Of a DNA stretch of 48,058 nucleotides, positions 2,354-29,160 are shown piece after piece. The DNA lies in NCBI GenBank assembly GCA_016191845.1, contig JACPVF010000015.1, positions 407,258 to 455,315 of the forward strand. The letters run 5' to 3'. The notes beneath the pieces were generated by a model that worked only from the letters and a program-made list of their open reading frames with translations, was not told the DNA's origin and did not search any database. The translations under genes were made by a program, and so were the position numbers. Each line of letters begins with the position of its first letter. Positions within the stretch are counted from its first letter, which is position 1. The stretch comes from Chloroflexota bacterium (lineage in GTDB: Bacteria; Chloroflexota; Anaerolineae; Anaerolineales; Villigracilaceae).

Positions 2354-3850
2354 TTATGGTGGGCCTGCCTTGATGGCGGTGCCCGCGTCGCCGCATTCGC
2401 AGGCTGTGACAGTGGCGTTGCCGCGCGTCAGTGTGCCTTGATAAGCCACCGAGCCGCTGTGGGCGATCCAGCCTTCCATGTTGAAGGCCAGCGGACTGTC
2501 GGCAAGAATCCACTCGCCGTTGTATTTGCGCGCAATGTGGACGTGCGTGCCCGTCACATGGCCACCCTGGCAGGAGGGATACCCGATGGGATCGCCCGCA
2601 CGCAATTCCTTGCCCAGCGGAGCGCGGCCTTCCTGGGCAAGGTGCAGATAGTAGATGACCCAACCCGTGCGCTCGTCGCCGTCCTTGTCGAGGTCGAGCG
2701 CCAGCCCGTCGATGCTCGAGCGGACCACCAGACCGTCGGCCATGGCCACCGAAAACTGCTCGGGTTCCACCTTGAAGCAGCCCGAGAATTCGGAAGGCGG
2801 CGCGAAGTCCACGGCGACGAAGGGCAGGCCAGTGCCCCAACCGGTGTGTGGTCCGCCTGTGTAGGACCAGGGGCGTCCCGGGGGGAAGGGCAGGAGCAGG
2901 TCGGGCTGTTTCAAGCTGCCGGGGATCAACTCGAACTGGACCGCCCACGGGTCGCCGAACAACTCGGTGTAAGTGCGCAACAGACCATCGGGTCCCGTGG
3001 CAGACAGGAACTGCTGCCCGGCATAGATGTGCGAAAAGTAATACTGTAAGGCCACCGACGCGGCGTTCTGCCAGGGATCGGGACGGGTCAGGGTCCCGTC
3101 TGTCAACTCGAATTCCAGCAGGTTGCCTTCGCGCCAGCCGTAATATCCGTTGTTGAGGGTGTTGGCCGCCCAGACCAGTTGCAGGTACGGGCTTTCGTAG
3201 TAGACCTTCTTGTATCCGAGCAAATACTTGCTAACCGGCGGCTTGGACTGGGACAGGGCGCCGCCCTGGTATTCGAGCAGGGCCAGCAACAGGCGCGGGC
3301 TGACGCTGAAATTGGTGGCGATGTAATCGACCAGCTGAGGCCCGGTGCGCCACTCTCCACCCGCGTAGGTGCGATAGGTCTTCAACCAGCCGTCGCGGGC
3401 GTTGACGAAGGCGGTGGTGTTGAATCCGATCAGGGCTGGGCCGTTGACAAAGGCGTGGTCGGGCAGGGGTTGGAACGAGCTGCCCCACAAGGCGCGGTAA
3501 TAGATGGGGATCTTCATCGGCAGACCGGGCGGCATGGTGGTGGCATCGCGCGGAATGATCGGGTTGGCGGCGAAGATCTCATCCATGGTGGTGTTGAAGC
3601 GTGCAGCCAGGGCGGGCAGGGTGTCGCCGTCCTGGGCGGTGTAGTCCACCAGTTCGCCGGGTGCGTAGGAGGGGCGGGTTGGCAGGGGTGTACTGGCCGG
3701 GAGCGCGGGGGCAGCCGTCGGCGGGAGGGAGGTGGGGGTTGTGAGCGGGAGGGAATTGGATGGGACGCAAGCGGTCAGCGCAAGCAGGCAGGCACTCAGC
3801 GCCATCCAGCCGCGCCTAAGGACCGACAGGCGAGGGGGTAGGTGTGACAT
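2354..3850 (-). CDS. LysM / lysozyme-like / M23 peptidase lipoprotein (paralogue A)
   Basis: The 498-aa protein is a predicted cell-envelope hydrolase, the third in a row of three paralogues. An n-region with RR and a hydrophobic stretch end in the lipobox LTAC (Cys28). A Pro/Thr-rich linker follows to about residue 68, then a LysM-like domain around YTAQDGDTLPALAARF. A middle helical domain contains VSPRLLLALLEYQGG. The C-terminal M23 domain keeps GGPHTGW, AVDFAPP, YLHLA and THVHIAR, the zinc and catalytic His/Asp set. An insert with DLDKDGDERTGW resembles a calcium-binding DxDxDG loop. I chose the ATG at 3850 because it gives a complete signal peptide. It overlaps the upstream gene by 35 bases; an ATG at 3805 would avoid overlap but leaves no n-region. 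Confidence 0.85.
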   Translation of the reverse strand: MSHLPPRLSVLRRGWMALSACLLALTACVPSNSLPLTTPTSLPPTAAPALPASTPLPTRPSYAPGELVDYTAQDGDTLPALAARFNTTMDEIFAANPIIPRDATTMPPGLPMKIPIYYRALWGSSFQPLPDHAFVNGPALIGFNTTAFVNARDGWLKTYRTYAGGEWRTGPQLVDYIATNFSVSPRLLLALLEYQGGALSQSKPPVSKYLLGYKKVYYESPYLQLVWAANTLNNGYYGWREGNLLEFELTDGTLTRPDPWQNAASVALQYYFSHIYAGQQFLSATGPDGLLRTYTELFGDPWAVQFELIPGSLKQPDLLLPFPPGRPWSYTGGPHTGWGTGLPFVAVDFAPPSEFSGCFKVEPEQFSVAMADGLVVRSSIDGLALDLDKDGDERTGWVIYYLHLAQEGRAPLGKELRAGDPIGYPSCQGGHVTGTHVHIARKYNGEWILADSPLAFNMEGWIAHSGSVAYQGTLTRGNATVTACECGDAGTAIKAGPP

Positions 3851-5435
3851 CGGGATCGCGGAAAATGATCGACCAGGCCTGTCCGACCGGGTCGGCTGTA
3901 ATGGTTTTGTTGTTGCGCACCAGCAGGCCCTCGTAGGGTTTCTTGCCTGCCACGGCGCGCCAGCCGCTGAGCATGAAGGGGATCGGGCCGTCGGCAGGGA
4001 CCCATTCGCCGTTGTATTTGCGGGCGAAGTGCAGGTGCGTGCCGGTCGAGACGCCACCCTCACAGGAGGGATGGCCGATCTTGTCGTTGGTGTCCAGCCA
4101 TTCGCCCTTCTGGACGCGGTCGGTGGTGGCGATGTGCAGGTAGAGCAGGACCCAGCCTGTCTCTTCGTAGCCGTCGCCATCGAGGTCTACGACCACCACA
4201 CCCTGTTCCGAGCGGACCACCAGCCCGGGCGCAGCAGCGGTCACCCAGGCGGTGGTGACGGAACAGCCGCCGTGATCGGTGGAGGGGGCGAAATCGATGG
4301 CAGCCAGAGCGCCGTCATGTTCCCAGGCGCCGTGCGGGCCGCCGGTATAGCTCCATTCCACGCCCGCCTGGAAGGGCAGGACGAGGTCGGGCTGGGTCAG
4401 TCCGGGTGGAAAGATGGGGTTGACGATGTTGCCGCGCGCCCACGGGTCGCCGAACATGTCGGCATACAAGGCGGGGAAGCCCGTCTTGGCATCCATGATC
4501 TGCGCCCACTGCGACTGGCTGTGTTGTTTGGAGAACAGGTATTGAACGGCGACCGTGCCCGCGTTCAGGCGCGGATCGAGGCGCAGGCGCGTGCCATCGG
4601 GGAAGGTCAACTCGGTGATCGAGCCGTCGCGCCAACCGTAATAGCCGATGGACAACTGGTTGACGGCCCAAACCATCTGCGTGAACATGCTCTTGTAGCG
4701 GAAATCCTCGTAGCCCATCGGGTACTCGGCGTGCAGGGCGTCCACGGGCTGGCCGCGCACCCAGCGGCTTTCGTATTCGAGCAGGGCCAGCAACAGACGC
4801 GGATTGATCGAGTTCTCGAAGGCCAGGCGCTTGATGGCCTGCGAACCCGTCACCCAACCGGTCGAGCCGAGATACTCACGATAGGTGCTGAGATACCCAT
4901 CCGCCTTCTTGATGTAATCAGCGATGTCAAAATCCACCGCGCTGGCAGTGAAGACGACTTCGCTATCGGGCAGGATCTCCTCGTTGGGGGTCCGCTGCGC
5001 CGTGACTTTGTCTGGGATGACGAGCAGGGTGCCCGGGTCGATCAGTGTTTTCTCGCCTGGCAGCGTCGTCGTGGACGTGATGTCGGCCACCTCGACGCTG
5101 AAGCGTTTGGCCACGCCCGAGAGCGTATCCCCGCTTTGGGTGTAGTACAGGATCGGCGCGGCGTTGGGGTTGGGCGTGGCGCTCGGTTCGCCGAAGCCCG
5201 ATCCGCGGCGGGTGGGGGTGACGAAGGATTTGATGGCGGTGGGGGTGATACTGGCCGTGGGGGTGATTGTGGGCGTGCCCGTCGGCGTGGAGGTCTGGGT
5301 GGGGCGCGGCGTGGGCGTGTCCGATGGCAGGACAGGCGTCGGCGTGGAATACGTCCCCCACAGGGACGGAGTCGCCATCCCACATGCGAATTGGAAGATG
5401 GCCAGGATGGAGATAGCGGTGAGCAGGCGTTTCAC
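3816..5435 (-). CDS. LysM / lysozyme-like / M23 peptidase lipoprotein (paralogue B)
   Basis: The 539-aa protein has the same layout as its neighbours. A signal peptide ends near FQFAC (Cys18, an imperfect lipobox), then come a TPTP-rich linker, a LysM domain around YTQSGDTLSGVAKRF, a middle domain with INPRLLLALLEYESRWV, and an M23 domain with GGPHGAW, AAIDFAPS, LYLHIA and THLHFAR. M23 enzymes cleave peptidoglycan cross-bridges. The middle segment resembles the catalytic helix of lysozyme-like transglycosylases, and only this paralogue keeps the ES pair expected there. DLDGDGYEETGW is a likely calcium loop. The start is GTG at 5435 with no Shine-Dalgarno sequence, but TATAAT ends eight bases upstream, so the mRNA is probably leaderless. 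Confidence 0.87.
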   Translation of the reverse strand: MKRLLTAISILAIFQFACGMATPSLWGTYSTPTPVLPSDTPTPRPTQTSTPTGTPTITPTASITPTAIKSFVTPTRRGSGFGEPSATPNPNAAPILYYTQSGDTLSGVAKRFSVEVADITSTTTLPGEKTLIDPGTLLVIPDKVTAQRTPNEEILPDSEVVFTASAVDFDIADYIKKADGYLSTYREYLGSTGWVTGSQAIKRLAFENSINPRLLLALLEYESRWVRGQPVDALHAEYPMGYEDFRYKSMFTQMVWAVNQLSIGYYGWRDGSITELTFPDGTRLRLDPRLNAGTVAVQYLFSKQHSQSQWAQIMDAKTGFPALYADMFGDPWARGNIVNPIFPPGLTQPDLVLPFQAGVEWSYTGGPHGAWEHDGALAAIDFAPSTDHGGCSVTTAWVTAAAPGLVVRSEQGVVVVDLDGDGYEETGWVLLYLHIATTDRVQKGEWLDTNDKIGHPSCEGGVSTGTHLHFARKYNGEWVPADGPIPFMLSGWRAVAGKKPYEGLLVRNNKTITADPVGQAWSIIFRDPDVTPTPSPVGP

Positions 5436-23386: not shown

Positions 23387-24187
23387 TTACGCAGGCTTAT
23401 AGGCCGTGATCTTGGCGCTATAGACCGCCTTGTACACATCCTCGCGCGGATACTCCGTCACATCCAGCTTCATGTCATCCAGGGCGCTGTCCACAGTTTG
23501 TTTGTCGAAGAACACAGGCTTGACCGAAATGCCTGTGAAGCCCACGGCTTCCATCATGCCGATGTATTCCTTCGCATCCACCGCGCCCGCCACACATCCC
23601 GCCCAGGCGCTCAGGCTGGTCTTCACTGCTTCGGGCAGCACGCCATCCGTCACGATATCCGAGACAGCCAGCTTGCCTCCTGGCTTGAGCACGCGGAAAG
23701 CCTCGGCAAAGACCTTGCTTTTATCGGGCGAAAGGTTGATGACACAGTTCGAGATGATGACGTCCACAGTGGATGAATCCACGGGCAGGGCTTCGATAAA
23801 GCCCTGGCGGAAGTCCACGTTCGTGAGGTTCAGGCGCGCCGCGCTGGACCTGGCGCGCTCGAGCATTTCGGGTGTCATGTCCACGCCGATGACCTGGCCA
23901 GACGGCCCCACCTTTTGGGCGGCGAAAAAGCAGTCGAGGCCCGCGCCTGATCCCAGGTCCAGGACGGTCTGTCCAGGCTGGAGGGCGGCCAGCGTGATCG
24001 GGTCGCCGCATCCAAAGCTGACGTTTGACTCTCCCTGAGGCAGGGTCTGCAACAAGTCGCTGGGATAGAGGTTGCTATCGGTGGAGCAGCAGGAGTCTCC
24101 GCCGCAGCAGGGCTGGTTGTTGGTGATGCGCTCCGCATAATGCTCGCGCACAGCATCGTGAATGGGGGTGGATGGGATGGTGGTCAT
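23387..24187 (-). CDS. arsM: Arsenite methyltransferase ArsM
   Basis: The 266-aa protein is an S-adenosylmethionine-dependent As(III) methyltransferase. VLDLGSGAGLDCFFAA (about residues 75-90) is the SAM motif I. The cysteines that bind arsenite in characterised ArsM are present: Cys60 in SFGCGDP, Cys148 in ISNCVINLSPDK and Cys198 in WAGCVAGA. The N-terminus adds CCGG and CC pairs near residues 27-34. The enzyme makes methylated arsenicals that are volatile or exported, here perhaps through ArsP. AAAAGGAGATAAACC precedes the ATG. An ArsR-type box lies about 75 bases upstream, so it has its own regulated transcript. Confidence 0.95.
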   Translation of the reverse strand: MTTIPSTPIHDAVREHYAERITNNQPCCGGDSCCSTDSNLYPSDLLQTLPQGESNVSFGCGDPITLAALQPGQTVLDLGSGAGLDCFFAAQKVGPSGQVIGVDMTPEMLERARSSAARLNLTNVDFRQGFIEALPVDSSTVDVIISNCVINLSPDKSKVFAEAFRVLKPGGKLAVSDIVTDGVLPEAVKTSLSAWAGCVAGAVDAKEYIGMMEAVGFTGISVKPVFFDKQTVDSALDDMKLDVTEYPREDVYKAVYSAKITAYKPA

Positions 24188-24260: not shown

Positions 24261-24278
24261 CATAGACTGATGTCTATG
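24261..24278. promoter_or_regulatory. ArsR operator 3, upstream of arsM
   Basis: CATAGAC-TGAT-GTCTATG is an exact 7-base inverted repeat and the best of three copies (also 24459-24474 and 24866-24881). On the minus strand TTGCAA lies 17 bases before TCTATG, so the box covers the spacer and -10 of a likely arsM promoter. The 168 bases from arsM to the peptide gene hold nothing else I can identify. Confidence 0.8.
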
Positions 24279-24355: not shown

Positions 24356-24439
24356 TTAGCAGCAGCTTCCGCCACCGCCGCAACCGCACTCAGGGCAATC
24401 GTCACAGCCGCACTGGGCCTGGATCACGTTCAGTTCCAT
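24356..24439 (-). CDS. 27-residue cysteine-rich peptide in the arsenic cluster
   Basis: This small gene encodes 27 residues with seven cysteines, at positions 10, 12, 15, 18, 20, 26 and 27. The N-terminal nine residues (MELNVIQAQ) are followed by CGCDDCPECGC, a Gly stretch and terminal SCC. An excellent Shine-Dalgarno sequence, AAAGGAGGTGAAAGCC, precedes the ATG at 24439, and TAA ends it at 24356. It lies between arsR and arsM with its own ArsR-type box 20 bases upstream. A metallothionein-like arsenic-binding peptide is the simplest reading. A precursor peptide for the nearby radical SAM/SPASM enzyme is a bolder one. No family is recognised. Confidence 0.72.
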   Translation of the reverse strand: MELNVIQAQCGCDDCPECGCGGGGSCC

Positions 24440-24458
24440 GGCTTTCACCTCCTTTCAT

Positions 24459-24474
24459 ATAGATATTTGTCTAT
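24459..24474. promoter_or_regulatory. ArsR operator 2, upstream of the cysteine-rich peptide
   Basis: ATAGAT-ATTT-GTCTAT differs from the perfect repeat by one base. On the minus strand TTGGAG lies 17 bases before TCTATA, so the operator again sits in the spacer and -10 of a plausible promoter. Confidence 0.75.
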
Positions 24475-24484
24475 GGATTACTCC

Positions 24485-24522
24485 AAAAAAATGGGAGGGC
24501 GGTCTGCAGCCAGCGCCTCCGC
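24485..24522 (-). terminator. Probable terminator of arsR
   Basis: On the minus strand GGAGGCG and CGCCCTCC pair with one bulge and are followed by CATTTTTTTGG. It lies directly after the arsR stop at 24529, so the peptide gene needs its own promoter. Confidence 0.6.
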
Positions 24523-24528
24523 ATCTTT

Positions 24529-24840
24529 TTACTGATTGATGACCTTGAGCAAATTCTCGGTAACAGACGTCTCGGGCGCGAACTTGACCATGATCTGCCC
24601 GCAGCACACGGCAATATATTCCTGGTTCAGAGAATAAAAGGTCTGCTTGCCTTCTTCACGTATCTTGACCAGGTTCGCATCGCGCAGGATGGCCAGGTGA
24701 TGTGAAATGGTCGGCTGGGTGAAGCCCACTTTTTCCACGATCTCGCTCACCGAAAGCCAATTGCAACAACACTCGCCCATGATCTTCTGGCGGGTTTCAT
24801 CGGCAATGGCCTTGGCGAAAAGCACAGGATCGAACTTCAT
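24529..24840 (-). CDS. arsR: ArsR/SmtB family arsenic-responsive repressor (first copy)
   Basis: The 103-aa winged-helix protein has ALADETR-type start (AIADETRQKIMGECCCNWLSVSEIV), where the CCC cluster takes the place of the ArsR CVC metal site in helix 3, then the DNA-recognition helix TQPTISHHLAILRDANLV. A further Cys pair (AVCCGQ) lies in the C-terminal helix. It should leave DNA when As(III) binds. I prefer the ATG at 24840, with GGAG nine bases upstream. A GTG at 24855 lies five bases after the -10 and could serve as a leaderless start adding MELPF. The promoter carries a strong operator, so it is autoregulated. Confidence 0.92.
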   Translation of the reverse strand: MKFDPVLFAKAIADETRQKIMGECCCNWLSVSEIVEKVGFTQPTISHHLAILRDANLVKIREEGKQTFYSLNQEYIAVCCGQIMVKFAPETSVTENLLKVINQ

Positions 24841-24860: not shown

Positions 24861-24888
24861 ATTATATAGACAAACGTCTATTTGTCAA
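24861..24888 (-). promoter_or_regulatory. Consensus arsR promoter with ArsR operator 1 in the spacer
   Basis: On the minus strand TTGACA (24888-24883), a 16-base spacer and TATAAT (24866-24861) match both consensus hexamers. The operator ATAGAC-AAAC-GTCTAT (24866-24881) fills the spacer. A bound repressor would block RNA polymerase directly. Confidence 0.88.
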
Positions 24889-24990: not shown

Positions 24991-26043
24991 TTATTTCGAG
25001 AAAATCCGCTTTTGCAACGCGAAGGCCGCGTTGACCAGGGCGATCATCACAGGCACCTCCACCAACGGTCCGATCACGGCGGCGAAGGCCTGGCCCGAAG
25101 AGATGCCGAAGACCGCCACGGCCACGGCGATGGCCAGCTCGAAGTTATTGCTGGCGGCCGTGAACGAAAGCGTGGCCGTCTTGGAATAGTCCGCACCCAC
25201 GGCCTTGCCCATCAGGAAGCTGACGAAGAACATCACCACGAAGTAGATCAGCAGCGGGATGGCAATGCGCACCACGTCCATCGGAAGTTGGACGATGTAT
25301 TCACCCTTTAGGCTGAACATGACCACGATGGTGAAGAGTAGGGCCACCAACGTGATGGGGCTGATCTTGGGGATGAATTGGTCGTGATACCATTCCTTGC
25401 CCTTGATACGGATCAGGGTAAAGCGTGTGATGAAGCCTGCCAGGAAGGGGATTCCCAGGTAGATGAACACGCTCTTCGCGATCTCGCCGATGGTGATGTC
25501 CACGATGGCGCCCTTCATCCCAAACCAGGTGGGCAGGACGGTGATGAACACGTAGGCATACACACTGTAGAATAGCACCTGAAAGATGCTGTTGAAGGCC
25601 ACCAGGCCCGCAGCGTACTCGGTATCGCCGTGTGCCAGCTCGTTCCACACGATGACCATCGCAATGCAGCGCGCCAGGCCGATCAGGATCAGGCCCGTCA
25701 TGTACTCGGGATAACCGCGCAAAAAGACGATGGCCAGCACGAACATCAAGATCGGGCCAATGACCCAGTTTTGCAACAGCGAGAGTCCCAGCACCTTCCA
25801 GTTGCGGAACACATCGCCCAACTCTTCGTATCTCACCTTGGCCAGCGGCGGGTACATCATCAGGATCAGGCCGACGGCGATCGGGACGTTGGTGGTGCCG
25901 ACCGAGAACAGCACGTTGAAGCGCGCCACTTTGTAGGCGTAGAAATATCCCAGGAAAACTCCCACCAGCATCGCCAGGAAGATCCACAGTGTCAGGTAGC
26001 GGTCGAGGAAGGAGAGCCGTTTGGTCAGGGTCGTGGTTGCCAT
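24991..26043 (-). CDS. acr3: Acr3-type arsenite efflux permease
   Basis: The 350-aa membrane protein has about ten transmembrane helices and the Acr3 signatures. [18 protein letters not shown] occurs in the fourth helix region, [16 protein letters not shown] holds the essential conserved cysteine (Cys126), and [17 protein letters not shown] occurs near the end. Acr3 exports As(OH)3 driven by the proton gradient. The start at 26043 has AGAGGATCATATTAAT upstream; the open frame before it lies in the radical SAM gene. It is the last gene of the arsR2-arsP-thioredoxin-radical SAM-acr3 run, 26 bases after the radical SAM stop. Confidence 0.95.
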
Positions 26044-26069: not shown

Positions 26070-27326
26070 TTAGGGGCAACGGATCAGTCCACGCGCCCAC
26101 AGACAGCCGCCGCAGGTGGGATGAACGTTGCCAAAACAATCTTCCAGGTTCTCATTGGCCATTTCACAGCTGTTGCAAAAGGCGCAGGGCGAGAAATCGA
26201 AATCCTGCAGGCGCTTTCTCAGCGCGCGATAGGCTTGCGTGTTCCATATCTCAACCAGGCTGTCTGCCTGAACATCCCCTGCAAAATATTCCTTTGAGGT
26301 GCGTTGGCGCTCGTCCAGGTAATGCTGGTGAGTATACAGCAGGGGCAGGCACGGACTGACCTTGCCATCCCAGCGCACAGCCAGGCTTCCGCGCTCCACG
26401 AACGGACATTGATCCGTGTTCCGATTGAGCAGACTGCCGGTCAGTTCCAATTGATTCAAGTCTTTCAGGATATTCATCAGCGCCCTGGCCGTTTCTGATT
26501 GCATATCCATCAGCGGCATGTGGATCAGCGGTCTGCTCTCCTGGCCTATGACCGTGTTCAGAGAACGCATATACAGATTTTCGCCAAGCAGCTCGTCATT
26601 ATGGGCCAGGACATTGCTGATCGAAAACTCCGTTGCGCCCAGGCGGGTGCCGAGGCGAATGACCTCATTCAGATCATGGATATTGCGCCGCATGGCGACG
26701 AAGGCAATTCCCAGCTTCGGATGGCCGCCCCAACTGGCCCCGCCGAACCGTTGAATCCTTTGAGTCCGCAATTGATTCAAATTTTCCAGGACGGTAGGCA
26801 GCGAGTCACCCAGACGCACGTCGCTGTAACATTCGGGCGAAGCGCCGTCCAGCGAGACCCACAGCATATCCAGATGCAGGTCGATCAGGCTGGTAATGAC
26901 CGTCTTCGTCAATAGAATACCGTTGGTGATCAAGGAGATGCGGTGCCCACGTTGTTTGGCCCGTTCGATCATGTGTAGGATGCGCGGATGGGAGAGCGGT
27001 TCGCCATAGCCGCCGAGAAAGATCTCAGGCTTCTCGGGTAGACCCTCCACGCCAGCCAGGATGCGCTCGAACGTATCCATGGACATGTGCCCGTATTTCA
27101 CATTCCACACGTTGCGCATGCAGGTGCTGCACGTCAGGTTGCATTTGTTGGTCACTTCCACGTACACGCGCCTGAGGCCATGAATGGACGGATGCATGTG
27201 CAATCCGCCTCCATTCATCTCCACCCGTACCTCATCGCCAGGCTGAATCCCCATTTTCCTGGCGAGTTGCGGCGGCAGCACGATCTCCTGCCTTTCGTTG
27301 ACGCGGGCGTAATGGACTTTTGCCAT
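26070..27326 (-). CDS. Radical SAM/SPASM protein with N-terminal AbrB-like domain
   Basis: The 418-aa protein joins three modules. Residues 1-47 are a SpoVT/AbrB-like DNA-binding swapped hairpin ([22 protein letters not shown]). Residues about 52-270 are a radical SAM barrel with the iron-sulfur motif CNLTCSTC (Cys62, 66, 69) and GGYGEPL. The C-terminal part is a Cys-rich SPASM-like region (CAFCNSC, then [18 protein letters not shown]), which should bind auxiliary clusters. SPASM proteins modify peptides or proteins. The substrate here is unknown. It sits inside an arsenic operon between a mini-thioredoxin and acr3. It does not look like ArsS or the arsinothricin enzyme ArsL by motif. Confidence 0.88.
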
Positions 27327-27378
27327 ATGGATTTGGCGCTCCTGTCGGGCATATTCCGTTTCTGCCCGTTCGTTACGA

Positions 27379-27630
27379 TCAGACGGCCTGGAGGGCGTTG
27401 GTCAGCCAGGTGGTGATCTGGGCTTCGCTGGGCAACTTCCCCGCGCTGACCAATTTCTCGTTGATCACCAGTCCAGGTGTGGACATGATGTTGTATTGCA
27501 TCATCTCGGCATAGTCGGTCACTTTGACAACCTGCGCTTCGACGCCCAAATGTTCGACGGCGCGTTCGGCCAGCCAGGCCAGGCGTTTGCAGTTTTCGCA
27601 GCCAGAACCGAGAATTTTGATGGTGAGCAT
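27379..27630 (-). CDS. Mini-thioredoxin (TM0996/MTH895-type small redox protein)
   Basis: The 83-aa protein is a minimal thioredoxin fold with the redox pair in GSGCENCKRL (Cys11, Cys14) and the cis-Pro in MSTPGLVINEKLVSAGKLPS. Such proteins are common next to ArsP/DUF318 permeases and arsenic genes and may supply electrons to arsenate reductase or remove arsenicals from thiols. The ATG at 27630 has AGGAGAGATCGAC upstream and lies 11 bases after arsP. The 52-base gap to the radical SAM gene has no terminator. Confidence 0.9.
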   Translation of the reverse strand: MLTIKILGSGCENCKRLAWLAERAVEHLGVEAQVVKVTDYAEMMQYNIMSTPGLVINEKLVSAGKLPSEAQITTWLTNALQAV

Positions 27631-27641
27631 GTCGATCTCTC

Positions 27642-28688
27642 CTAAAGGATCCAATTGAATAGAAAGCCCGTCAGCATGATCGCACCCGCGACGACGCTGA
27701 AGAACGTGATCAGCAACGGCAGTTTCAGCACACGCCGCAGGATGACCGCCTCGGGCAAACTCAGTCCGATCACTGACATCATGAAGGCCAGCGCCGTGCC
27801 GAGCGAAGCGCCCTTCTCCAGCAAGGCGCTGACAATCGGGATCATACCTGCCGCGTTGGAGTAAAGCGGAACTCCCAGCAGCACGGCTGCGGGCACCGAC
27901 CACCAGCTTTGTTTGCCCATCATGGACACCAGGGCCGATTCTGGCACGTAGCCGTGAATCCCTGCGCCGATCGCGATCCCCACCACCACGTACAACCAGA
28001 CCTTGCCGACGATCTCCTTCACCGAGGCCGCCGCCTGCGAGATACGCTGGCCCCAGGTCAGTTTTTCTTCGCTGGTCTCTCCCGAGCGGTGGATCTTCCA
28101 CACAAAATCTTCCACAAAGCGTTCCATCTTGAGCCTGCCCATGATCCAGCCTGCCAGGATGGCGATGCTCAACCCTGAGAGGATGTACAGCCCCACCACT
28201 TTGATGCCGAACAATCCCAACAGCATCACGATGGCTACTTCATTGATGGTGGGCGCCGCGATCAGGAAGGAGAAGGTCACGCCCAGCGGGATGCCCGCCT
28301 CCACGAAGCCGATGAAGAGCGGCACCGCCGAGCACGAGCAGAACGGTGTGACGATGCCCAGCAGGGCCGCCAGCACGTTCCCAACTCCCTCGCGTTTACC
28401 GCCCAGCAGGGCGCGGGTCCGCTCGGGGCTGAAGAAGGAGCGCACGATGGAAATCAGGAAGACCATCCCCGAAAGCAGGAGCAGGATCTTGGGAACGTCG
28501 TATAGGAAGAACGCCAGGGCCTCCCCAAGGCGGGAATCCTGTGGCAGGTTCAGGGCGGAATAAGAGATCCAGTTGGCCAGCGGCTGGATCAAGTTATAAG
28601 CGGCGGCCCAGGCGACGACGCACAGGACCACGATCAGGGTCAACCGACGGGTGGGGAGAGAACTGGAAGGAGCGGGCAGGGTGGTCAT
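27642..28688 (-). CDS. arsP: ArsP-type permease (DUF318 family)
   Basis: The 348-aa protein has about eight to ten transmembrane helices in two halves with a cytoplasmic loop (RFVEDFVWKIHRSGETSEEKLTW). VTPFCSCSAVPLFIGFVEAGIP carries the CSC pair (Cys117, Cys119) characteristic of ArsP_1 permeases, and GVPLYSNAAGMIPIVSALL is the matching motif in the second half. Characterised ArsP exports trivalent organoarsenicals such as methylarsenite, which fits the presence of arsM. It lies six bases after arsR2 and 11 before the mini-thioredoxin gene. Other DUF318 members move other substrates, so the exact cargo is inferred. Confidence 0.88.
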   Translation of the reverse strand: MTTLPAPSSSLPTRRLTLIVVLCVVAWAAAYNLIQPLANWISYSALNLPQDSRLGEALAFFLYDVPKILLLLSGMVFLISIVRSFFSPERTRALLGGKREGVGNVLAALLGIVTPFCSCSAVPLFIGFVEAGIPLGVTFSFLIAAPTINEVAIVMLLGLFGIKVVGLYILSGLSIAILAGWIMGRLKMERFVEDFVWKIHRSGETSEEKLTWGQRISQAAASVKEIVGKVWLYVVVGIAIGAGIHGYVPESALVSMMGKQSWWSVPAAVLLGVPLYSNAAGMIPIVSALLEKGASLGTALAFMMSVIGLSLPEAVILRRVLKLPLLITFFSVVAGAIMLTGFLFNWIL

Positions 28689-28694
28689 TTTCTT

Positions 28695-29069
28695 TTATAG
28701 AGCCTCAATGTGGATCAGGGTTGTTTCCGCCTTGGCGCTGCATTTCGGGCAGGGACACACGTTGTTCGCGTGGCGATGTTGGGGGAGGGTGGGGCGAACG
28801 CCTGCAGCAGCCTGCAGGGCGGCCAGCACGTCGAAGATTTCTGGCTTGACCACGCGATAGTACAGGTTCAAGCCGTCGCGCCGCGATTCGACCAGGCCAG
28901 CATTCTTCAAGGGCATCAATTGCTGCGAGATATACGCCTGTCGCAGGCCCAGGGTGGCCTCCATGTGACAGACGCATTGCTCCCCGTCTTTCAGGATGTC
29001 CAGAATGGCAAGCCGCGTGGGATGGGCGAAGGCTTTGAGAAATTCGCTTTGTATTTCGTAAGGATCCAT
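28695..29069 (-). CDS. arsR: ArsR family repressor (second copy)
   Basis: The 124-aa protein is a winged-helix ArsR. AFAHPTRLAILDILKDGEQCVCHMEATLG contains the CVC As(III) site in helix 3, and RQAYISQQLMPLKNAGLVESRRDGLNLYYRV is the recognition helix and wing. The C-terminus adds CPCPKC, a second possible metal site. It differs clearly from the first arsR, so the two are not recent duplicates. The ATG at 29069 is preceded by TAGGTTTGTC. A separate inverted repeat, ATTCA...TGAAT, lies just upstream. It heads the arsP-thioredoxin-radical SAM-acr3 run. Confidence 0.93.
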   Translation of the reverse strand: MDPYEIQSEFLKAFAHPTRLAILDILKDGEQCVCHMEATLGLRQAYISQQLMPLKNAGLVESRRDGLNLYYRVVKPEIFDVLAALQAAAGVRPTLPQHRHANNVCPCPKCSAKAETTLIHIEAL

Positions 29070-29080
29070 GACAAACCTAC

Positions 29081-29096
29081 ATTCAAAATTGTGAAT
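29081..29096. promoter_or_regulatory. Probable operator of the second arsR operon
   Basis: ATTCAAAATTGTGAAT is symmetric at 14 of 16 positions and lies 12 bases before the ATG. TATATT and TATACT boxes overlap or adjoin it on the minus strand. It shares nothing with the ATAGAC-N4-GTCTAT boxes of the first arsR. Confidence 0.65.
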
Positions 29097-29113
29097 ATAG
29101 TATAAGCAAAAGA

Positions 29114-29141
29114 AGGACGCAGGGCGAATGACCTGCGTCCT
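29114..29141 (-). terminator. Intrinsic terminator of arsC
   Basis: AGGACGCAGG and CCTGCGTCCT pair around an 8-base loop, followed on the minus strand by TCTTTTGC. It separates arsC from the arsR2 operon. Confidence 0.85.
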
Positions 29142-29160
29142 CAAAAGTTTATGACAAAGC

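Follow-up and report, generated by a model that had tools for sequence, protein, structure and literature searches.

A short cysteine-rich peptide gene behind a predicted ArsR-type operator in an arsenic locus of a Chloroflexota bacterium

The peptide gene and its arsenic locus

A 48,058-nucleotide stretch of contig JACPVF010000015.1 from a Chloroflexota bacterium (Anaerolineales, Villigracilaceae), here called the window, carries a 27-codon cysteine-rich peptide gene on its minus strand. Translation of the frame gives MELNVIQAQCGCDDCPECGCGGGGSCC followed by a stop codon, a peptide of 27 residues with seven cysteines at positions 10, 12, 15, 18, 20, 26, and 27. On the minus strand, the genes follow each other in the order radical S-adenosylmethionine (SAM) protein, acr3, arsR, peptide gene, and arsM. 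The Shine-Dalgarno sequence of the peptide gene reads AAAGGAGGTG, and the operator ahead of it is a perfect ATAGAY-N4-RTCTAT palindrome; the same palindrome stands before arsR and arsM (Table 1). A first-pass annotation, made from the letters of the window alone, had described the seven-cysteine frame, its Shine-Dalgarno sequence, an ATAGAC-type operator of its own, and its position between arsR and arsM, and all four are confirmed here. We also place a putative arsR terminator directly before the peptide operator, because T-runs and fold energies back it in most, though not all, relatives; it is absent from the list of a consensus terminator scan of the window.

Table 1 Features of the arsenic locus in the window (strand "." for the operator palindromes)
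Feature	Coordinates	Strand	Basis or remark
27-codon cysteine-rich peptide gene	24356..24439	-	Translation and conserved family
Shine-Dalgarno sequence AAAGGAGGTG	24446..24455	-	Sequence; precedes peptide ATG
ArsR-type operator of peptide gene, perfect ATAGAY-N4-RTCTAT palindrome	24459..24474	.	19 bases before ATG
Putative arsR terminator, hairpin then T7	24485..24523	-	Sequence; directly precedes peptide operator
arsR, ArsR/SmtB repressor with CCC and CC cysteine clusters	24529..24840	-	Pfam HTH_5, NCBIfam HTH_metalloreg
ArsR-type operator of arsR, within perfect TTGACA-16-TATAAT promoter	24866..24881	.	
ArsR-type operator of arsM	24262..24277	.	Same palindrome as arsR and peptide gene
arsM, arsenite methyltransferase	23387..24187	-	NCBIfam NF008823, 308 bits (cut-off 263)
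acr3, arsenite efflux transporter	24991..26043	-	NCBIfam TIGR00832, 459 bits (cut-off 282.8)
AbrB/SPASM radical SAM protein, tungsten-cofactor maturase-like	26070..27326	-	TIGR04317, 285 bits, below cut-off of 380

A conserved peptide family beside arsR

Within the taxonomic family of the window's genome, 96 of 152 genomes carry an ArsR relative at an E-value of 1e-15 or better. Every frame was scanned in 99 loci, reaching 1.5-2 kb to either side of the ArsR matches, or less at contig ends, with a peptide pattern that has an ATG start and at least 5 cysteines. By this pattern scan of ArsR loci, 40 of the 96 genomes proved to have a peptide relative. In 26 of them (one judged from a split contig) its gene stands between arsR and arsM, and in seven it comes after or distal to arsM; the other seven have arsR and the peptide without arsM in the examined stretch, one of these (genome G391) having arsM about 1.8 kb further on. 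The pattern matched 37 times in 376 kb of ArsR loci versus 0-1 times in each of ten order-1 Markov resamples, and in a set of 225 loci (1.21 Mb) all 78 matches, repeat fetches counted, fall no more than 1.8 kb from a match to arsR or arsM. Judged by these sequences, the frame is a real conserved gene, beyond chance. On the whole, the test for a conserved frame in relatives was passed, although near the arsR of G254, the only other genome of the window's genus, no copy was seen.

The 37 distinct peptides span 22-29 residues and have six (8 peptides), seven (27), or eight (2) cysteines. All except one end in Cys-Cys, and a Lys, Arg, or His after residue 3 occurs in only one of the 37. At the N-terminus, 34 of 39 distinct frames start with M-(x)-E/D-L-x-V/I/M. 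The codons behind this motif vary, with Leu written by five synonymous codons and Pro by four, and Leu, Pro, and Val each by four or five.

Close pairs of family members were compared for selection. Over 10 independent pairs the ratio of non-synonymous to synonymous change (pN/pS) was 0.29 and is not near one; 34.5 of 79 changes were synonymous compared with 18% expected (p = 3e-7, the test using 34 of 79), and codon positions 1, 2, and 3 had 17, 24, and 38 changes. These patterns indicate that purifying selection acts on the protein sequence of the peptide. On an ArsR tree (97 rows, few columns, and many open forks), the presence of the peptide is clustered, requiring 12 changes versus 31.1 with shuffled labels, with none of 500 shuffles as low; therefore, the peptide is inherited, with repeated losses or gains. 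One starred ArsR clade of nine rows has the peptide throughout and includes all six loci with arsR and the peptide but without arsM or acr3. ArsM proteins 75-85% identical occur in metagenome-assembled genomes (MAGs) labelled Anaerolineales, Anaerolineae, Anaerolineaceae, Anaerolinea, or Chloroflexi.

The window frame belongs to a previously undescribed conserved peptide family, and the remark of the first-pass annotation that no named family resembles it was borne out. The window peptide and three relatives matched no Pfam family at E 1, a comparison of 32 members with NCBIfam gave a single match, to IscR at E 0.63, and no PDB chain matched the peptide. A family profile matched 31 of the 152 genomes; it misses the window's own copy and others from the direct scan (e.g., G218 and G272), so absence by profile is weak evidence. 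Among 400 genomes of the order, the profile matched 31, comprising 29 of the family and two others at E 0.016 and 0.064, whose frames were uninspected individually. Among 400 genomes of the phylum it matched 18, eight being family genomes and the other ten lying at E 0.015-0.093, again with frames uninspected individually. No credible relative outside the family emerged from these 400 genomes each of order and phylum by a profile that misses the window's copy, and the pattern scan of more distant ArsM loci (L028-L083) recovered no family member.

Some candidates were set aside. A query with the single window peptide against 400 genomes of the order matched three, namely its own copy and two weak hits that we treated as chance, one inside a 376-residue frame (G150, E 0.002) and one in a 79-residue frame (G298, E 0.006). 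In a relaxed scan, cysteine-containing frames of L070 and L077, no farther than 210 bases from a match to an ars gene, were set aside by eye as unrelated. Locus L071, from a more distant Chloroflexota MAG, contains a 43-residue frame (3814-3945, minus strand) with repeated CCGDPSKM units and seven cysteines, about 1 kb from an ars gene match. It is unlike the arsR-linked family and is possibly another short metal-binding peptide.

Predicted operators and independence from arsM and acr3

In the window's 4.63-Mb genome (G000), perfect operators are confined to three sites, those of arsR, the peptide gene, and arsM, and the control pattern does not occur at all. Among the distinct arsR-side frames, the operator with at most two mismatches precedes all 32, and with at most one mismatch 30; it lies 16-25 bases before the ATG in 31 of the 32. 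In 31 of these frames arsR was seen adjacent, the contig of L014 starting just before the peptide gene. A Shine-Dalgarno-like match precedes all 32 and likewise the seven other distinct frames, which have no operator of their own (at least three mismatches). A T-run of at least 6 stands before the operator in 29 of the 32, with a preceding fold of -5 kcal/mol or better in 21, as would be expected of an arsR terminator. The operator with at most one mismatch also precedes arsR in 83 of 99 ArsR loci and arsM in 61 of 86. By sequence, the peptide gene is predicted to be controlled by an ArsR/SmtB-family arsenic repressor through this operator.

Outside the arsR side, the peptide gene follows the arsM match by 21-38 bases in five genomes; its distance behind arsM is 1.0 and 1.7 kb in the two g17 genomes. 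L024 (6485-7590) presents an operator, an ArsP-type permease (Pfam ArsP_1, 118 bits), and then the peptide 44 bases behind; in its close relative L021 (6485-6875), the permease frame is missing while operator and peptide are kept. A variant operator, ATCGATATGTATCTAT, stands before the peptide in L092, L133, L141, L137, L147, L121, and L134, with one base different in L147. These seven members belong to one ArsR clade, and arsR itself keeps the ATAGAC/T form.

Six loci have arsR and the peptide without adjacent arsM or acr3, namely L092, L111, L133, L137, L141, and L147, belonging in that order to genomes G167, G206, G218, G290, G272, and G260, whose assemblies are 91-96% complete. At E 0.001 an Acr3 match was found in the window's genome and in none of these six (ArsB, ArsJ, and ArsK were not searched for). 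ArsM over the NF008823 cut-off is absent in five of the six, the best matches reaching 46 to 71 bits versus 263, as for ordinary methyltransferases; the sixth, G167, has an arsM that is paired with another arsR copy at a distance of 0.6 Mb. Since arsR and the peptide persist in five genomes with no ArsM over the cut-off, delivery to ArsM does not hold as the general function. In G206, a 104-residue protein with a CCSF motif is encoded between an operator and arsR, ending just before arsR, and is perhaps cotranscribed with it. The CCSF protein is found at 1814-2128 in L111 and at 1175-1489 in L236, both on the minus strand, with no Pfam match above cut-off (best 14 bits).

Proposed function of the peptide and relation to known systems

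We postulate that the gene probably encodes a metallothionein-like peptide that responds to As(III) and buffers it in the cell. Arsenite (or antimonite) would enter, bind the ArsR cysteines, and lift repression. ArsR is taken to be an As(III) sensor, given its shared locus with arsM and, in L173-L178, with acr3. The very short mRNA would then be translated at a high rate, and the 6-8 thiols of the peptide could hold one or two As(III) in the form of As(Cys)3, shielding essential thiols; the seven thiols of the window peptide would leave room for up to two arsenic atoms. Bound arsenic may later be passed to Acr3 or ArsM where these are present, or be diluted; genomes that lack both would have peptide buffering as a main response. 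Arsenic binding is predicted, and the near-absence of Lys, Arg, and His after residue 3 is what would be expected for neutral As(Cys)3 rather than Zn or Cd clusters. PMC11590777 reports binding of As(III) to cysteine-rich metallothionein and describes As(Cys)3 in structures of ArsR. The first-pass annotation had also proposed an arsenic metallothionein-like peptide; the real gene, the repressor operator, and the metal-thiolate make-up in that proposal stood, and its two further suggestions, delivery to ArsM as a general function and a SPASM precursor, were not supported.

Several observations weigh against this reading. The operator is less specific elsewhere, with 26 sites of the perfect pattern versus eight of the reversed control in 16 other genomes and none in G146; the window's genome, with its clean count, does better than average. 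No peptide is visible within 1.5-2 kb on each side of arsR in 56 of the 96 ArsR genomes; the peptide is dispensable in these, and 52 of the 56 have ArsM. Cysteine spacing varies freely among members, and the relaxed scan revealed a divergent member, L018, with only four cysteines, after arsM. Constraint is uneven, the pair L156/L014 having 3.5 synonymous versus 14.5 non-synonymous changes and L124/L128 having 0 versus 2. An ArsP-type permease with an operator of its own is present in G218, and other transporters may contribute to the arsenic response in such genomes. Metal binding alone does not explain the conserved N-terminal motif. Finally, the ligand of ArsR is deduced, and Sb(III), Cu(I), or Cd(II) may also be considered.

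The last point leads to a rival reading in which the peptide serves a different soft metal (Cu(I), Cd(II), or Sb(III)) and ArsR responds to that metal. Seven cysteines in about 25 residues would also fit Cu(I) clusters, as in the Neurospora metallothionein, but the operator shared with arsM in the window, which recurs before arsM in most of the loci as given above, and the same type of ArsR before acr3 in L173-L178 make this quite unlikely. Somewhat better placed, and still unlikely, is a metallochaperone that carries As(III) to ArsM (or Acr3) and docks through the N-terminal E-L-x-V, as ArsD does with ArsA. The gene lies between arsR and arsM (26) or directly after arsM (5) in 31 of the 40 peptide genomes, the cysteine pairs resemble the three vicinal pairs described in a passage on ArsD (PMC12608789), and the retention of the N-terminal motif while its codons vary is the best argument for a docking role. 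Against it stand the five peptide genomes without ArsM over the cut-off, which like G167 also lack an Acr3 match, the distance of arsM from the peptide locus in G167, where it sits with another arsR copy, and the 52 ArsM-bearing genomes without a visible peptide. Because peptide genomes exist without ArsM over the cut-off and without an Acr3 match, neither protein is an obligatory acceptor, and the suggestion that the peptide hands As(III) to ArsM is unsupported as a general function. We prefer buffering over delivery because the constant partner of the peptide is ArsR, not ArsM or Acr3.

The other suggestion of the first-pass annotation was a precursor peptide modified by the SPASM enzyme, which it had placed 2 kb away. 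As the precursor of a ribosomally synthesized and post-translationally modified peptide (RiPP), the peptide would have a short leader and a cysteine-rich core modified by a radical SAM/SPASM enzyme such as the one in Table 1. The protein is indeed close, with its near end 1.6 kb from the peptide, and a conserved leader-like N-terminal stretch with a Cys/Gly core would suit a precursor; the neighbourhood, however, is not conserved. An ortholog (at least 66% identity) is found in 13 of the 152 genomes, five with the peptide and eight without, and is absent from 35 of the 40 peptide genomes (Fisher p = 1.0 for co-occurrence). In the 12 other enzyme genomes, it lies on a different contig or more than 100 kb from arsR or the peptide, and the six arsR-peptide stretches without arsM showed no such enzyme. 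More distant homologs of about 40-50% identity are widespread; some match at E 1e-100 occurs in 64 of the 152 genomes. The best family of the enzyme itself is a tungsten-cofactor maturase. With neither linkage nor correlation, a precursor role for the window's SPASM enzyme is unsupported and very improbable, and the enzyme is judged to be outside the peptide system. A cis-acting leader peptide, whose run of Cys codons would sense charged tRNA-Cys and attenuate arsM transcription, would agree with the frame's short length, its many Cys codons, and its place upstream of arsM. Yet arsM in the window has its own operator, which lies downstream of the peptide gene, selection acts on the amino-acid sequence, and elsewhere the gene follows arsM or has no adjacent arsM, a position that contradicts this role and leaves it extremely improbable.

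The proposed arsenite-buffering peptide beside its predicted repressor recalls the SmtB-SmtA system, in which a small cysteine-rich peptide gene is under an ArsR/SmtB-family repressor, as predicted here, and a sensor is combined with a sequestering peptide. SmtA-type proteins are about twice as long as the peptide, contain His, and bind Zn and Cd; SmtA/BmtA-type metallothioneins have about 50-60 residues with 9-10 Cys plus His. In contrast, the peptides described here have 22-29 residues and 6-8 Cys, His occurs in one of 37 members, and no Pfam or NCBIfam model matches. By model match, length, and His content, the peptide is outside the bacterial metallothionein family. The copper metallothionein of the fungus Neurospora crassa has about 25 residues, seven Cys, many Gly, and no His. 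The peptide shares this general description, the likeness being one of description only, and differs from a protein that is fungal and binds copper. ArsD, a folded protein of about 120 residues, acts on ArsA. The peptide resembles it as an ars-operon product with vicinal Cys pairs (PMC12608789, in part) and, presumably, trivalent arsenic as ligand; it is far shorter and occurs without the tested acceptors ArsM and Acr3. With 27 residues and no Pfam match, the peptide is ruled out as an ArsD metallochaperone.

We suggest that the peptide-arsR pair may be viewed as an arsenic counterpart of SmtB-SmtA, with an unrelated, much shorter peptide and an arsenic-type sensor. The arrangement of a sensor plus a sequestering peptide is known; here it comes with a new peptide family and an arsenic-type sensor. 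In PMC8790569, the adjacent cyanobacterial genes smtB and smtA are called a divergon, and bmtA and bxmR are said to share an operon; BxmR-BmtA and AzuR-NmtA are further cyanobacterial repressor-peptide systems, with nmtA remote from azuR (PMC8790569 and PMC12193353, in part). SmtA-type proteins adopt a zinc-finger fold, as an excerpt of PMC10612145 states. In Thermus, the ArsR/SmtB repressor TtSmtB binds operators before TtarsM and TtarsX (PMC8649762, in part), similar to the present locus in that operators of one such repressor precede arsM and another arsenic gene; the operator sequence is different, and the passages concerned mention no cysteine-rich peptide.

The abstract of a 2025 paper (PMC12093948) states that no specific gene for intracellular arsenic sequestration has been found within the ars operon, and the peptide is a strong candidate for this missing component. 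No description of an arsR-linked peptide of such kind was found in the open-licence PMC literature, mostly judged from search listings; its length makes the gene easily missed. More tentatively, and with slightly more doubt than confidence, it could represent a dedicated, genetically encoded bacterial arsenic metallothionein that in some relatives is the main arsenic-response gene beside the sensor. If so, it would be among the shortest metal-binding peptides with their own promoter and operator, and some relatives would tolerate arsenite by binding rather than by methylation or export. For chemistry and sensors, the peptide would be a minimal natural As(III) ligand, and the combination of an operator with a cysteine-rich frame is a way to find very short operator-controlled genes.

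A second arsenic-type cluster lies in the window at 26070-29144 on the minus strand. No perfect ATAGAC-type operator occurs within it. The cluster runs into acr3 on the same strand and consists of another ArsR, an ArsP-type permease, an ArsE-type thioredoxin-like protein, and the AbrB/SPASM radical SAM protein.
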